Made by a program: the position numbers and the translations under genes
Shown here: piece after piece, positions 32,929 to 39,756 of the stretch
Layout: every line of letters begins with the position of its first letter
Numbering within the stretch: the stretch's first letter is position 1
Assembly: GCF_000337835.1 (NCBI RefSeq)
Contig: NZ_AOLM01000002.1
Location: 1-64,000 of the forward strand
DNA length: 64,000 nt
Origin: Haloferax sulfurifontis ATCC BAA-897
GTDB taxonomy: Archaea > Halobacteriota > Halobacteria > Halobacteriales > Haloferacaceae
Reading direction: 5' to 3'
The notes under the pieces: generated by a model
Seen by the model: only the letters and a program-made list of their open reading frames with translations
The model's database searches: none
Told to the model about the DNA's origin: nothing

Positions 32929-34242
32929 ATGGTACGTGATATCGTACGCCGCGACTTCCTCAAGGGAGTGGGAGCCGCGGGCGCGGCAGGCTTGACTGGC
33001 TTATCCGGATGTATCGGTGGCGGCGGCGGTGGCGGCGGCCCCGAGGGGCTCGTCGTCATCGGCTACCCCGAAAGCGGTATTCAACTGTTCCGTGACTACT
33101 ACAGCGCGTCCGACGGGAGCGAGGAGATTCTCGTGCCCGACGGGATGCGCTCCGGCTCGATGCCCGGGCAGGTCGGCAACGACATGGCGAACGTGACCGG
33201 GACGGCACCCGCGGCGGGCGGTCCGAACCAAGAGACGTTCAATCAGCTGTTCGAAGACGAGTACGATGCGGCACCGGGCGTCTTCACGTCGCAGACGTAC
33301 GACTCGGTCGCGATTCAGCTTCTCGCGAACGCCGCCGCCGGGGAGAACTCCGGGCCGGCCATCAAAGATCAGATGCGCCGGATGGCGAACCCCGGCGGGA
33401 TGACCGTCGGACCGGACAACCTCGTAGAGGGTATCGAGGCCGCCGCGAACGGCGAAGACATCGACTACCAGGGCGCGTCGTCGTCCGTCAACTTCGACGA
33501 GAACGGCGACCCGGCGGAAGCCGCGTACGCCATCTGGGAGTTCGACGCCGAGAACAACGCCACGTCGAGCGTCGAGACGCAGTCGTTCGCCGGTGAGAAC
33601 CCCGACGGGAACGGCCCGTCGGCGGACAGCGGCCCGGGCGGCTCCGACCGCGAGATGTCGGTCGGTATCCTCCTGCCCGAGACCGGCGACCTCGCGGCCG
33701 TCGGTGCGCCGATGATTCAGGCCGGTCAGATTCCGGTCATGCAGGTCAACGACGCCAACCCGGCCGGCCTCTCGGTCAACGCGCAGATCGAAGACACCCA
33801 GACGTCCCCGGACGCCGGTGTCTCCGCCGCGCAGTCGCTCGTCTCCGCGGGCGTTCCCTCGGTCTGTGGGTCGGCGTCGTCCGGCGTGAACGTCCCCGTC
33901 TCACAGCAGGCGTTCATCCCGAACGAAATCGTCGGCTGTTCGCCGTCCTCGACGGCGCTGTCCGTCTCGAACCTCGAAGACAACGACTTCATCTTCCGGA
34001 CCGCACCCTCGGACTTCCTGCAGGGCCGCGTCATGGCGCAGGTCATGTCCGAGCGCCTCGAAGTCAGCTCGGTCTCGACGCTGTACGTCAACAACGACTA
34101 CGGCCAACAGCTCTCCGAGCGCTTCGCGAACGTGTTCAGCGACTCGTTCGACGGCGAGGTGTACAACCAGGTCGCGTTCAACATCGGCGAGTCCTCGTAC
34201 TCCTCCGTCATCGAGACGGCGCTGTCCGGTCCGGAGAACTAA
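32929..34242 (+). CDS. ABC branched-chain amino-acid-type substrate-binding lipoprotein, circularly permuted
   Basis: A 437-residue Tat lipoprotein: RRDFLKG near residues 7-13 and lipobox LSGC with the lipid Cys at 28. Residues 39-215 (GLVVIGYPESG to AIWEFDAENN) match what is normally the second half of LivJ/BraC-type type I binding proteins. Residues 241-437 (REMSVGILLPETGDLAAVG to VIETALSGPEN) match the normal first half. The junction is a Gly/Ser/Pro linker (216-240) with GPGGSD, like a post-lipobox spacer. The native order is thus swapped in one intact frame. It is the only such binding protein near livHMGF and probably serves it. Confidence 0.85.
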   Translation: MVRDIVRRDFLKGVGAAGAAGLTGLSGCIGGGGGGGGPEGLVVIGYPESGIQLFRDYYSASDGSEEILVPDGMRSGSMPGQVGNDMANVTGTAPAAGGPNQETFNQLFEDEYDAAPGVFTSQTYDSVAIQLLANAAAGENSGPAIKDQMRRMANPGGMTVGPDNLVEGIEAAANGEDIDYQGASSSVNFDENGDPAEAAYAIWEFDAENNATSSVETQSFAGENPDGNGPSADSGPGGSDREMSVGILLPETGDLAAVGAPMIQAGQIPVMQVNDANPAGLSVNAQIEDTQTSPDAGVSAAQSLVSAGVPSVCGSASSGVNVPVSQQAFIPNEIVGCSPSSTALSVSNLEDNDFIFRTAPSDFLQGRVMAQVMSERLEVSSVSTLYVNNDYGQQLSERFANVFSDSFDGEVYNQVAFNIGESSYSSVIETALSGPEN

Positions 34243-34456: not shown

Positions 34457-35638
34457 ATGAAGCGACGCGCCCTCCTCTCGACCGTCGCCGGGTCGGCTCT
34501 CGGACTCGCCGGCGGCTGTCTCTCCGACACCGACGCCCCGACCGACACACCCACGAACCCGCAGACCACCACGGCCGCGACTGACGGCCCGGCCGAGTCA
34601 GACACGCCGGGGCCGGGTTCCGAGTCCGGCGCCGGTCTCTCGGTCGTCAACGAGGACGACGAGCCGCACGCGCTGTCGGTCCGAGTGACCGACGGCGACG
34701 AGACGCGCGTCGACAGTTCGCTCGACGTCGGTGCCGGCCCCGGCTACGGTCGGAACGTCGCGAACGACCTCGTCGACGCCGGTCGTTACCGCGTCGTCGC
34801 GGAACTCGACACGGGCGCGACGCTCGACTACGAGTGGACGGTCACGAACGAGACGCGCCGCCTCGAACTCGTCGTCACGTCCGACGCCGGCCTCGAACCG
34901 CGACAGCGCGTGACGCCGGCACTCGACGACGCCGACCTGCCGTACTCGGTGCCGGGCTCGACGGACATCTTCTCGCCGCCGACCGCGGGGATTCGGAACC
35001 GGAGCGACGCCGACGCCCGGCTGACGGTCGCCATCGAACACGGCGGGACCCGCTTTTTCGAGCACGCGTTCGACGCGGCGACCGACAGAGAGATTTCGAC
35101 GCCGGCGCTCGTGAAGTCCCACGGCACCTACGAGGTGTTCGTGGAGGCCGACGACGGCCGCACCGCGACCCACGAGTGGCACATCCCGGAGAAGTGGGCG
35201 TGGCCGACGCTCGCGGTACTCGTCGCGGACGACGGCTCGCTCCGGGTCGGCTCTGGATGGCCCGAGATGGCCTCGGTTCGCGTGACGAACGAGGACGAGA
35301 CGGAACGCGACCTGACGCTGACGCTCGTCCGACCCGACGACGCCGATGCCGGCGGTGACGACGCCGGCGGGGCCGGCACCGACTCTGGTGGTACGGTCGT
35401 CTCGGAGACGGCGCAGACTGTCCCACCCGGTGAGTCGACCGTGGCGGTCGACATCCCCATCGGCGACGAGTACGAGCTAACCGTCGAGACGGCCGCGGGG
35501 TCGGAGACGGTCGACTACCCGGCGTGTTACTGCTGGAGCACGACTGCGGAAGTAACGGTCGGCGGTAACTCGGCGGGGGGTTCGAACGGCGGAGACGACG
35601 GTCCGTCGGTCGAGTCGTTCCAGTACGTCTGCGAGTGA
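34457..35638 (+). CDS. secreted lipoprotein, function unknown
   Basis: A 393-residue protein with an N-terminal signal MKRRALLSTVAGSALGLAGG and lipobox Cys (GGC) near 21. A Thr/Pro/Asp-rich spacer follows, then beta-rich extracellular repeats (LSVRVTDGDE, FVEADDGRTATHEW, LRVGSGWPEMASVRVTN). Near the end is YPACYCW, a close Cys pair. It looks like a surface protein with Ig-like domains. It lies between the permuted binding protein and the convergent livF. The 214 bases before it hold only a pyrimidine-rich TTCCGTTT repeat. Confidence 0.7.
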   Translation: MKRRALLSTVAGSALGLAGGCLSDTDAPTDTPTNPQTTTAATDGPAESDTPGPGSESGAGLSVVNEDDEPHALSVRVTDGDETRVDSSLDVGAGPGYGRNVANDLVDAGRYRVVAELDTGATLDYEWTVTNETRRLELVVTSDAGLEPRQRVTPALDDADLPYSVPGSTDIFSPPTAGIRNRSDADARLTVAIEHGGTRFFEHAFDAATDREISTPALVKSHGTYEVFVEADDGRTATHEWHIPEKWAWPTLAVLVADDGSLRVGSGWPEMASVRVTNEDETERDLTLTLVRPDDADAGGDDAGGAGTDSGGTVVSETAQTVPPGESTVAVDIPIGDEYELTVETAAGSETVDYPACYCWSTTAEVTVGGNSAGGSNGGDDGPSVESFQYVCE

Positions 35639-35671: not shown

Positions 35672-36433
35672 CTATCCGCCGAGGAAGTCCTGCCGGACCT
35701 GTTCGTCTTCGAGGAGCGCCGTCCCGGTGTCCATGTAGCGGTTCTGTCCGTTGGCGAGGACGTAGCCGCGGTCACAGCGCCGGAGCGCCTCCTTGGCGTT
35801 CTGTTCGACCATCAGGATGGCCGTGCCGGCCTCGTTGATTTCGTCGATTTTGTCGAACATCTCCTCGACGAGGTCGGGCGCGAGGCCCGCCGACGGCTCG
35901 TCTAAGAGCAGGAGGTCGGGGTCGAGCATGAGCGCGCGACCCATCGCGAGCATCTGCTGTTGCCCGCCGGACATGGTGCCCGCCTTCTGGTCTTTCCGCT
36001 CTCTGAGGATGGGGAACCGCTCGTAGACCGCCTCCATGGCGTCCTTCGGTACCTCGTCGAGGATGTACGCGCCCATTTCGAGGTTCTCTTCGACCGTCAG
36101 CGTCGGGAAGACGTTGTCGTTCTGCGGGACGTAGCCGATGCCGACGTGGATGATGTCCTCGGGCCGGCGGCCGGTGATGTCCTCGTCTTTGAACCGGACG
36201 TTGCCCCCCATGTGGACGGTCAGTCCGAAGACGGACTTCATCGTCGTCGATTTGCCGGCCCCGTTCGGCCCGACGATGGTGACGTACTCGCCGTCGAACA
36301 CGTCCATGTCGACGTCGGTGAGAATCTGGAGGTCGCCGTAGCCGGCGTCGAGGTTGCGGACGCGCAGGAGCACGTCGTCGCGGCCCTCGACGCCCGCGCC
36401 GCTCGTCGCGTCGGTGTTGGCGTCGACGCTCAT
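35672..36433 (-). CDS. livF: branched-chain amino-acid-type ABC transporter ATP-binding protein LivF
   Basis: A 253-residue ATPase: Walker A GPNGAGKSTTMK, signature MSGGQQQMLAMGRAL, Walker B LLLLDEPSAGLAPDLV. The end (YRFMDTG-like, here RYMDTGTALLEDEQVRQDFLGG) is typical of LivF. Last gene of livHMGF; its ATG overlaps the livG stop by four bases. After the stop the minus strand has a short T run (TTATTTTTC) before the convergent lipoprotein gene. Confidence 0.92.
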   Translation of the reverse strand: MSVDANTDATSGAGVEGRDDVLLRVRNLDAGYGDLQILTDVDMDVFDGEYVTIVGPNGAGKSTTMKSVFGLTVHMGGNVRFKDEDITGRRPEDIIHVGIGYVPQNDNVFPTLTVEENLEMGAYILDEVPKDAMEAVYERFPILRERKDQKAGTMSGGQQQMLAMGRALMLDPDLLLLDEPSAGLAPDLVEEMFDKIDEINEAGTAILMVEQNAKEALRRCDRGYVLANGQNRYMDTGTALLEDEQVRQDFLGG

Positions 36434-37293
36434 ACGTTGCCTCCGAGGTAGGCCTCGATGACCTCTTCGTTGCTCCGAATCTCGTCTGGCGTCCCCTCGG
36501 TGAGCACCGAGCCCTGGTGGAGGACGATGACGTGTTCACAGTTGTTCATGATGAGGTCCATGTCGTGTTCGACGAGCAGGAACGTGTAGCCCTGCTCGCG
36601 GAGTTCGTGTACGTGTTCGAGTAGCTTCTTCTCGAGCGTGGGGTTGACCCCGGCGAACGGTTCGTCCAAGAGTAGCATGTCGGGGTCGGTCAGAAGCGCC
36701 CGCGCCATTTCGAGGAGTTTGCGCTGGCCGCCCGAGAGGTTGCCCGCGTACTCCTCTGCGATGTGGGCGATGTCGAAGAAGTCGAGCACCTCCCAGACGC
36801 GTTCGAGCAGTTCCTCTTCCTGTTCGCGGACGTCGTCGCGGACGCCCGGCATGACCGAGCGCCACAGCGTCTCGCCCCGCTGGTGTTTCGGCGCGAGCAT
36901 CATGTTTTCGAGGACGGTCATCTCGCTCAGTTCGCGGGCGATTTGGAACGTCCGGACCATCCCGCGGTTGGCGATTTGGTGCGGCTCCTCGCCGGTGATG
37001 TCCTCGCCGTTGAACGTGACCGTGCCGGCGTCGGGCTTGAGCATGCCCGTGATGAGGTTGAACGTCGTCGACTTGCCGGCCCCGTTCGGGCCGATGAGGC
37101 CCGTGAGCGTCCCGGATTCGACCTCGAAGGTCGCGCCGTCGACGGCGGTGATGCCGCCGAAGGACTTCTCCAGTCCCTCGACCTGAAGCGGGTAGTCGAC
37201 CGACGTGTCGACCCCGGAGGCGAACGCGCCGAGCGCCCCCTCGTCGACCTTGTTCGCCACGTCTTCGACGGGCTGGTCGGCGGCGTCACTCAT
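36430..37293 (-). CDS. livG: branched-chain amino-acid-type ABC transporter ATP-binding protein LivG
   Basis: A 287-residue ATPase with an extra acidic N-terminal stretch of about 45 residues before LQVEGLEKSFGG. Walker A GPNGAGKSTTFN, signature LSGGQRKLLEMARAL, Walker B LLLDEPFAGVNPTL, and the LivG-type C-terminal EVIEAYLGG are all present. It overlaps livM by eight bases and livF by four. Confidence 0.92.
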   Translation of the reverse strand: MSDAADQPVEDVANKVDEGALGAFASGVDTSVDYPLQVEGLEKSFGGITAVDGATFEVESGTLTGLIGPNGAGKSTTFNLITGMLKPDAGTVTFNGEDITGEEPHQIANRGMVRTFQIARELSEMTVLENMMLAPKHQRGETLWRSVMPGVRDDVREQEEELLERVWEVLDFFDIAHIAEEYAGNLSGGQRKLLEMARALLTDPDMLLLDEPFAGVNPTLEKKLLEHVHELREQGYTFLLVEHDMDLIMNNCEHVIVLHQGSVLTEGTPDEIRSNEEVIEAYLGGNV

Positions 37294-38653
37294 CGGTCTC
37301 ACCCCCTTCGGCCGCGGCGTCGACACCGCCGTCGGTGCGGACCGAATCGTCGTCCCCGCCGTCGGCGGTCATCGACTTCGGCCGCGACAGCGGGATGACC
37401 GACGCCGTCTCCTTGCGGTAGCCGAGCATCCCCTCCGGCCGGTTGTGCATCAGCCAGATGAGCACGAGGCCCATCACGACCAGTTGGAGCTGTCGGATGC
37501 TGTCGACCGTGTACAGGAGGAACGGCACGGGGTCGAACTGCGAGATGAGCGGCGAGATGGCCTGCCCGAAGCCGGACGGCGAGTCGAGGTTGGGGAACAC
37601 CGCCGTCACGAGGTTCTGGAAGTACCGCGGCCCCTGATAGAGCACCGCCGCGAAGACGGCCCCGCCGAGGACGCTCCCCGTGTTCGAGCCGGCCCCGCCG
37701 ATGATGAGGGCAATCCAGACGAAGAACGTCACGCGCGGCCGGAAGAAGTTCGGCGTCACCGCGCCCTGCGGGACGAGCCAGAGGATGCCGGCGAGCCCCA
37801 TCAGCGCACAGCCGAGCATGAACGACTTGATTTTGAACCGGTCCGTGTTTTTGCCGAGGGCGTTCGCCACGTCCTCGTCCTCGCGGATGGCCTTCAGCAC
37901 GCGGCCGAACGGCGACTCGCCGGTGCGCTTGAGTAACCAGTAGAACGCCGCGACGAAGCCGAGGAGCAACAGCCCGTAGATGAGGCCGTCGACGACCGGC
38001 TTGGGGTTCCTCGGCACCACCACTTGGAAGGCGTCGACGAAGCCGAGGTACGCGTCCCAGAGGCCGACGCCGCGGAGCAACGCCTCAAGCGGCGGGGCGA
38101 AGTCGAGGATGAGTCCCGACCCGCCGCCGAAGCCGACGCGGTTGCCGAACAGCTGGAACTGCTGGAGTTCGCCCGAGAGGAAGCTGAACCGGACGATTTC
38201 CGACATGGCGATGGTGACGATAGCCAAGTAGTCGGCCCGCAACCGGAGCGCCGGGAGCGCGACCACGAGCCCCAACAGCGCGGCCGCGAGCATCCCGGCG
38301 AGGATGCCGACCCAAAGCGGGAGACCGAGACCGCCGACCTGCGCCGCGCCGCCGGCGACGTACGTCGGTTTCGTCACGATTGCCGTGACGTAGACGCCGA
38401 CGGCCATGAAGCCGACGATGCCGATGTTGAACAGCCCGGTGTACCCCCAATGGAGGTTGAGCGCGAGCGACAGCATGGCGAAGACGCCGATGTAGAACGT
38501 CAGCGTCGCGATGGAGTTGAGCTGTCCGCGGAGCGTGTAGCCGAGGACGAACCCGGCGAGGACGTACGCGAGGTACGTCGCGAGGAGGACCAGCACGATG
38601 AGGCCCGCGTCGCCGCCCGGAATGCGGTCGGTGAAGTCGTCGCGGACGCTCAT
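37286..38653 (-). CDS. livM: branched-chain amino-acid-type ABC transporter permease LivM
   Basis: A 455-residue permease with about ten membrane helices. It has NLHWGYTGLFNIGIVGFMAVG, the LivM hallmark (cf. GLLNFGHVAFFAIG), LRADYLAIVTIAMSEI, and the ATPase-contact loop GRVLKAIREDEDVANALGKN. The longer C-terminus ends in a charged cytoplasmic tail. Overlaps with livH (four bases) and livG (eight bases) show coupled translation. Confidence 0.92.
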   Translation of the reverse strand: MSVRDDFTDRIPGGDAGLIVLVLLATYLAYVLAGFVLGYTLRGQLNSIATLTFYIGVFAMLSLALNLHWGYTGLFNIGIVGFMAVGVYVTAIVTKPTYVAGGAAQVGGLGLPLWVGILAGMLAAALLGLVVALPALRLRADYLAIVTIAMSEIVRFSFLSGELQQFQLFGNRVGFGGGSGLILDFAPPLEALLRGVGLWDAYLGFVDAFQVVVPRNPKPVVDGLIYGLLLLGFVAAFYWLLKRTGESPFGRVLKAIREDEDVANALGKNTDRFKIKSFMLGCALMGLAGILWLVPQGAVTPNFFRPRVTFFVWIALIIGGAGSNTGSVLGGAVFAAVLYQGPRYFQNLVTAVFPNLDSPSGFGQAISPLISQFDPVPFLLYTVDSIRQLQLVVMGLVLIWLMHNRPEGMLGYRKETASVIPLSRPKSMTADGGDDDSVRTDGGVDAAAEGGETDE

Positions 38654-39756
38654 GCGGTCGCCCTCCCGCTGAACAGCCCGGACGGTTTCACGAGCAGGAT
38701 GACGATCATGACGACGAAGGCGGCGGCCCGCGAGAACGCCGAGGGAATCCACAGGACCGACATGGACGCCGTCAGCCCGATGACGAGGCCACCGGCGATG
38801 GCCCCGTAGATGGAGCCGATGCCGCCGAGGATGACCGCGGCGAAGATGAGAAGCAACAGGAGCCACCCGTCGTTGAACCCGAGTGTCCCCTTCCAGAGGA
38901 TGAACATGTACCCGGCGACGCCGGTCAGTCCGCCGCCGATAATCCACGTCGCGCGGACGACGCGCTCGGTGGAGATACCGGTGATGAGCGCGAGGTCCTT
39001 GTTGTCGGCCATCGCGCGCATCGCCTTCCCGAGTTTCGTCCGCTGTAAGAGGACGTGAACCCCGAGCATCAGCGCCGAGGCGACGACGAGGAGCGTGATG
39101 TCGTGGGCGTTGATGAAGACCGTGCCGTCGATGAAGTACAGCGATACCGAGGGCGGCTGGGCGGTCGTGCCGCGAACGTCGGAACCGAAGACGAACTGCA
39201 TCAGGTAGCGGAGCGCGAACGCGACGCCGACGCTCGTGATGAGAAGCGTGATGCCGTCCTCGTTTCGAATCGGCCTGAAGATGGTTCGGTCGACCGCGAG
39301 CGACAGCGCGATGGAGAAGGCGCCGGAGACGACGATGCCGGCGACGACCGCCAGCGGCGTCGAGAGTACCCCGATACCGAGCGTCCCACCGTAGACCGAC
39401 CCCCCGGCCCCGACGAGCAGGAGCGCGCCGATATCGGCGCGGCCCAACCCGGCGATGAGGTACGTCGTCGCCCACCCCGAGAACGCACCGGCCGTGATGT
39501 AGTCGCCGTGCGAGAAATTAGCGAAGTTTAGAATACTGTACGTCATCGACAACCCGATGCCCGCGAGGCCGATTACGAGCCCCCGCATCAGACCATCCCA
39601 GACGAGCGTGCCAATGTCGGCAAACTGCGTCTGCCCCGTTGCTAACCCGCGAAGTAAGTCACCGAGTAGTACGACTACGATGACCGCCAAGACGAGCGCG
39701 AACGGACGCTCGATGGCGAACTGCCTTCCACGGGAGTAGGTTTCGGCAATACCCAT
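38650..39756 (-). CDS. livH: branched-chain amino-acid-type ABC transporter permease LivH
   Basis: A 368-residue permease with about eight helices. Signatures: LGMTYSILNFANFSHGD-like region (here SMTYSILNFANFSHGDYITAG) and the contact loop TKLGKAMRAMADNKDLALITG. First gene of livHMGF. Upstream, TATA-like GATTTATC and TTTATGG boxes lie 30-50 bases before the ATG, so the mRNA may have a short leader. No canonical binding-protein gene precedes it, which is unusual for this operon type. Confidence 0.92.
   Translation of the reverse strand: MGIAETYSRGRQFAIERPFALVLAVIVVVLLGDLLRGLATGQTQFADIGTLVWDGLMRGLVIGLAGIGLSMTYSILNFANFSHGDYITAGAFSGWATTYLIAGLGRADIGALLLVGAGGSVYGGTLGIGVLSTPLAVVAGIVVSGAFSIALSLAVDRTIFRPIRNEDGITLLITSVGVAFALRYLMQFVFGSDVRGTTAQPPSVSLYFIDGTVFINAHDITLLVVASALMLGVHVLLQRTKLGKAMRAMADNKDLALITGISTERVVRATWIIGGGLTGVAGYMFILWKGTLGFNDGWLLLLLIFAAVILGGIGSIYGAIAGGLVIGLTASMSVLWIPSAFSRAAAFVVMIVILLVKPSGLFSGRATA

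Follow-up and report, generated by a model that had tools for sequence, protein, structure and literature searches.

Most natural circular permutations known so far are single, old events recognized between distant homologues. Among type I substrate-binding proteins, TpMglB-2 (Tp0684) of Treponema pallidum is known as a permuted glucose-binding protein for which the class 'Type Ic / Cluster Bc' was proposed (PMC4990184). Permutation by duplication has been described for saposin/swaposin and for DNA methyltransferases (reviewed in PMC3320104). No report of a permuted LivJ, or of any permuted haloarchaeal binding protein, was found among open-licence papers.

The gene analyzed here lies at 32929..34242 (+ strand) of the window, by which we mean the whole stretch of 64,000 nucleotides from Haloferax sulfurifontis ATCC BAA-897. 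Its product shares with LivJ/LivK, BraC, Atu2422 and TM1135 LivK (type I, cluster B, PF13458) the homology of both halves, the Ser/Thr/Asp of the ligand site, a predicted two-lobed fold and an adjoining Liv-type importer. Unlike them, it has swapped halves, termini that we assign to lobe 2 and an extra linker that connects the former termini. It resembles TpMglB-2 in being a natural, tethered, permuted type I binding protein with an inferred fourth inter-lobe crossover, and in this sense it satisfies the permuted type I element of 'Type Ic / Cluster Bc'. The N-lobe cut and the sugar-binding family are not matched: TpMglB-2 is cut in the N lobe, with its first three strands moved to the C-terminus, and belongs to the MglB family (PMC4990184), whereas the window protein is cut at about residue 194 of 3ipc and belongs to the LivJ family. 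The text consulted does not report a repeated origin for TpMglB-2 (PMC4990184); the LivJ permutation, in contrast, arose at least three times, always in one loop of the same gene.

Results

The frame at 32929..34242 is open and uninterrupted, as the original prediction had it, and encodes a circularly permuted LivJ/BraC-type substrate-binding lipoprotein of 437 aa (translation, Pfam and conservation). All of its parts are on the + strand. The Tat signal (RRDFLK) and a lipobox ending in Cys28, likewise predicted, occupy 32929..33012; they were recognized by sequence and pattern scan, with a TAT_signal match (E 7.7e-4) that falls short of the Pfam cut-off. A Gly-rich spacer follows (residues 29-40, 33013..33048), and its end, PEG, is the remnant of the canonical xDPDx loop when junctions are tabulated. 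After this spacer the mature protein starts with GLVVIGYPESG..., which opens the canonical C-terminal half (residues 41-222, 33049..33594), placed first according to half-specific HMMs and alignments. A 19-residue linker, ENPDGNGPSADSGPGGSDR (33595..33651, from the junction table), lies between the old C- and N-termini. The canonical N-terminal half (residues 242-432, 33652..34224) is placed last, as judged by Pfam, half-HMM order, junctions and a structure match, and this last part of the translation runs from REMSVGILLPETGDL to VIETALSGPEN. The new C-terminus comes after the helix ending ..VIETAL, and the junction table shows that the tail SGPEN (34225..34239) is variable among relatives.

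Peripla_BP_6 (PF13458) scored 84.4 bits against a cut-off of 31.7, and its positions 3-186 fell on residues 244-431 of the protein, so that the N-terminal part of the family is C-terminal here. In native order only residues ~242-433 aligned with solved LivJ-like structures, and they did so with the N-terminal halves. Rotation of the sequence (241-432 joined to 39-222), a check that had been proposed with the original prediction, made it collinear with 3ipc 5-298 and 3td9 4-316 and improved the best E-value against solved structures from 1e-13 to 2.5e-15. Half-specific HMMs gave the order C-N in the window protein and N-C in ordinary relatives, and the canonical order of halves along the chain is thus not kept. 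Pfam, the rotated alignment and the half HMMs confirm the claim of swapped lobes and of a true circular permutation. Given its conservation across genomes (below), the swapped order is far beyond chance, and the window protein is a permuted variant, not a canonical member, of the Peripla_BP_6 branched-chain amino-acid binding proteins.

Structure prediction, also proposed as a check, agreed with this assignment. AF2 modeled the permuted protein with a pLDDT of 87.4 and a pTM of 0.86 (90.8 and 0.90 for an ordinary relative), and the helices and strands of the two models correspond one-to-one after rotation. The ordinary model matched TM1135 LivK over its full length (Z 40.4, rmsd 2.3, 342 aligned). 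A sequential aligner placed residues 209-404 of the permuted model on 3ipc 1-194 (Z 13.8, rmsd 2.6, 193 aligned), and the cut therefore lies at about residue 194. Only sequential structure comparison was used, which cannot show the whole permutation, and the first 190 residues of the model have no independent match to a solved structure. The two-lobed fold is accordingly assigned, for the first half of the protein, by sequence and prediction only.

Ser79, Thr102 and Asp/Glu226 of Atu2422 (3ipc), which we take to be the amino-acid-binding positions of the family, all have equivalents in the window protein; a search of open-licence papers found none naming the Atu2422 ligand contacts. By alignment, the predicted ligand residues are Asp71 (33139..33141, +; Asp226 in Atu2422), Ser318 (33880..33882, +; Ser79) and Thr342 (33952..33954, +; Thr102), and all three are invariant. 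Asp71 lies in the first part of the chain and Ser318 and Thr342 in the second, thus the ligand site would be built from both parts. Models and sequence, without binding data, point to an otherwise ordinary type I Leu/Ile/Val-type binding protein that carries its lipid anchor on lobe 2. Most likely it binds an amino acid or a related small ligand in the cleft and delivers it to the importer, but transport is inferred, and neither ligand nor transport nor membrane orientation has biochemical support.

The survey of haloarchaeal orthologues suggested at the outset found the C-N order widely. A match at E <= 1e-55 was present in 238 of the 392 genomes of the order (Halobacteriales), and 77 of these 238, counted by hand, gave only the two-piece match of the ordinary order. 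About 160 of the 392 genomes carry a permuted copy, by manual count from the genome match table; this figure includes one doubly permuted copy (L093, see below) and one truncated copy. Holders include Haloferax, Halogeometricum, Halobellus, Haloquadratum walsbyi J07HQW1, Halorubrum, Halorussus, Haladaptatus, Halospeciosus, Haloglomus and Haloarcula. Every genome of the same genus that was searched has the C-N order as one full-length match with 89-98% identity. A few genomes (G026 and G053) have an extra, ordinary copy besides the permuted one. The genome of the window also encodes a distant LivJ-like paralogue in ordinary order (G000:C3:162329-163627, ~30% identity).

Several of the loci come from draft genomes or MAGs, and an assembly or annotation artefact had to be considered. 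We give this explanation practically no credence, since the same order occurs in isolates and in complete chromosomes across many genera (NZ_CP122312 and NZ_CP085301 among the latter) and both halves are under purifying selection. Within Haloferax, the mature protein has a dN/dS of 0.04-0.16; the linker is constrained as well, with a low dN/dS of its own. Assembly error is rejected for the window gene by the conservation of its order in isolates and complete genomes, but an artefact is still possible for the single MAG that contains L093.

Downstream, on the - strand, are genes for a LivF-type ABC ATPase (35672..36433), which is the convergent neighbour, a LivG-type ABC ATPase with BCA_ABC_TP_C (36430..37326), a LivM-type permease whose start codon is not fixed (37286..38674) and a LivH-type permease (38650..39756), all assigned by Pfam and synteny. 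The window gene is thereby co-encoded with the LivF, LivG, LivM and LivH components by which a HAAT/Liv-type ABC importer is recognized. Between the binding protein and LivF, a predicted 393-aa lipoprotein without a Pfam match is encoded at 34457-35638 (+); it is fast-evolving (38-87% identity in some Haloferax) and was not found in other Haloferax.

Nearly all loci, permuted or ordinary, have the LivF, LivG, LivM and LivH genes in this order on the strand opposite to the binding-protein gene, with LivF tail-to-tail to it. Upstream, a uridine-kinase-like gene (UrK) is common to permuted Haloferax and to Halobium, Natronocalculus and others with the ordinary order. Permuted and ordinary copies occupy the same position beside LivFGMH, and therefore the gene was permuted in place. 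From the shared synteny, the permuted gene is best read as an orthologue of the ordinary gene, not as an unrelated paralogue that replaced it.

The same neighbourhood bears on whether the permuted protein has lost transport and become a sensor or the partner of a chemotaxis receptor. Haloarchaea do have SBP-like signalling proteins, e.g., BasB (named in PMC12240190), and the genome of the window has a second LivJ-like protein. LivFGMH, however, adjoins the gene in permuted and ordinary lineages alike, and the trees of the binding protein and of the operon group similarly in both, which makes a sensor role highly improbable; service to the adjoining importer remains our reading.

For the trees, proteins were split with the half-specific HMMs, permuted ones were rotated, and signal, spacer and linker were excluded. 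Permuted proteins fell into four groups on the rotated binding-protein tree: P1 (Haloferax and most genera), P2 (many Halorubrum and relatives), P3 (Haloarcula and relatives) and the small P4. A single permuted clade was rejected (dlnL 73, AU p 2e-6). The N-half and C-half trees, built separately, recovered the same four groups, which rules out a mosaic of two paralogues. The operon tree (LivF+G+M+H), which has no columns in common with the binding protein, also rejected a single permuted clade (cost 258 log units, p 1e-61), and it rejected P2+P3+P4, i.e., the permuted proteins outside the Haloferax lineage, as one clade (cost 145, p 6e-6); P3+P4 could be a single clade (support 74). A single origin is thus rejected by AU tests on both trees. 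The outgroups from bacteria, and the homologues found in other parts of the phylum, were all in ordinary order; the root is therefore ordinary and the changes are best read as gains.

Given the clades rejected, at least three independent permutations occurred in Halobacteriales, in the same loop of the same gene. The exact number is 3 or 4, as deep branches of the binding-protein tree are weakly supported. The trees were quick searches without bootstraps; membership of the permuted groups rested on the very trait being tested, and the labels P2, P3 and P4 were given with the tree already in view. The original prediction was right that a permutation took place but had read it as one event.

The cut site in ordinary proteins has the pattern ..SYTSxLxxAL-xxDPDx-LVVIGYPxSG.... 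All permuted clades have their new C-terminus 1-5 residues past the ..AL helix, and in most permuted members the new N-terminus still has PD (or PE) from this loop. The cut is nearly identical in all permuted clades, but the linkers are unlike: the joined old termini read ..FEGxNPxGxGPSADSGPGGxxR in P1, ..FGxELxxEDxNAxAxDPVGVDxF in P2 and ..PQPEPxGSGSxxxR in P3. The linker end GGxxR, just before the old N-terminus, resembles the post-lipobox spacer of ordinary proteins, which is circumstantial support for the proposed origin of the linker from such a spacer. The GPE shared by the two ends of the window protein, taken earlier as a sign of duplication, is weak evidence: the new N-terminus simply retains the conserved xDPDx loop motif of the family, and most relatives end in ALSS, ALSE or NQ, not in SGPEN.

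Lobe 2 of LIVBP comprises about residues 121-249. The cut falls inside this lobe, in a helix-to-strand loop at about residue 194-195 of 3ipc, and yields near-equal halves of about 191 and 183 aa. These boundaries put the two new termini in lobe 2 and make the linker a fourth inter-lobe crossover. Helix-to-strand loops of such sheets are on the face away from the cleft; the cut is therefore probably distal to the cleft and not at the hinge, an inference from known topology without measured coordinates. The original prediction had placed termini and cut alike near the hinge, which holds for the old termini but not for the cut.

That three events hit nearly the same position, to within a few residues, suggests a preference for this lobe 2 loop, set by selection, by mutational bias or by both; the data do not discriminate between them. 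A shorter or absent membrane spacer was considered as a shared driver and discarded, as median spacers are alike (34 residues in permuted vs. 35 in ordinary proteins) and members without a lipobox occur in both kinds.

One gene has been permuted again. L093 (7851-9194, identical to L149; genome G323, MAG QS_4_69_225) carries a second, different permutation atop the first, with the chain order N(37-190)-C-N(1-39) and the P1 linker kept. The loop of lobe 2 is closed again, and the new cut is before the second strand of lobe 1. The gene is nested in P1, as sister to the permuted L071. It was found in 1 of 392 genomes, a single MAG, and therefore needs confirmation.

The nearly identical cut and the demonstration by L093 that a permuted gene can be re-permuted would also suit a single ancient permutation from which the ordinary order was later restored several times. 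This history is disfavoured, and we consider it unlikely: relatives found outside the order are all ordinary, so that the root is ordinary; at least eight reversions would be needed on the operon tree by our own count, against three gains; and no ordinary copy has a linker relic, whereas L093 has one. We therefore retain independent gains.

Other loci depart from the usual arrangement. Two full ordinary binding proteins are fused in an 827-aa frame in SAR202 cluster bacterium bin16 (L106, 7818-10298). Haladaptatus and relatives have two adjoining permuted genes (L067, L070, L180, L181, L183, L184 and L185), next to LivFGMH wherever enough flanking sequence is available to judge; in every pair the second copy keeps the Tat signal and has no recognisable lipobox. 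Permuted genes are truncated in Haloplanus MAG LUM.53 (L115, 3982-4395), where the frame stops after 138 aa, and in L169 (G188), where a 368-aa frame stops within the second half.

Discussion

We think it probable that the type I binding protein of the neighbouring Liv importer was permuted in place at least three times via tandem duplication. Of this reading, the permutation itself, its conservation, the orthology in place and the rejection of a single origin by two independent trees are shown by the data, and the rest is inference. The window gene would be the substrate-binding lipoprotein of the adjoining Liv-type amino-acid ABC importer. A tandem copy at the resident locus would have fused to the first copy, and the duplicated outer parts would then have been lost, leaving the old termini joined through a short linker. 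The route would have been repeated at least three times in Halobacteriales, each time with the chain opened at one and the same lobe 2 surface loop. The lipid-anchored N-terminus, once in lobe 1, would thereby have come to lie in lobe 2, and a fourth connection between the lobes would have been gained near the hinge; any effect on tethering and opening is inferred.

Tandem duplication followed by trimming, the route first proposed from the window gene, stands as the most economical one, but it is likewise inferred, its support is circumstantial and it is not proven. The adjacent permuted pairs of Haladaptatus show that duplication at the locus occurs, and the two ordinary copies fused in one frame in the SAR202 relative, 89% identical, represent an intermediate of the sort needed for permutation via duplication. 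Among the haloarchaeal genomes and loci examined, none had an intermediate that was fused or trimmed only halfway. Near-equal halves could also result from fission of the gene into two separate half genes that were later fused in opposite order. No examined locus has a half as an intact separate gene, however, and the lone half-like ORF (L115) is a truncated fragment; we find fission and later fusion quite unlikely and prefer duplication.

The proposed route of tandem duplication, fusion and trimming of ends is that of saposin/swaposin and the DNA methyltransferases (PMC3320104). Unlike in those cases, the events here are parallel ones at a locus that is orthologous and syntenic, and related genera carry its gene in either order, ordinary or permuted. 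Type I binding proteins with a permuted chain were known from TpMglB-2 and its relatives, which differ in cut and ligand family, and the duplication route is a textbook one; what is new is breadth and repetition at one syntenic locus. It is conceivable, although we lean slightly against it, that the permutation recurred because a lipid anchor on lobe 2, or the fourth inter-lobe link, is selectively favoured in tethered haloarchaeal binding proteins; this would be parallel evolution of chain topology at one orthologous locus, with serial re-permutation ongoing.

A common haloarchaeal family is misread when its sequences are aligned collinearly or annotated by the order of their parts. Ordinary and permuted orthologues at one gene position provide replicate natural experiments on a change of chain topology, and these replicates bear on (i) whether mutation or selection picks the cut; and (ii) whether it matters to ABC import which lobe carries the anchor.
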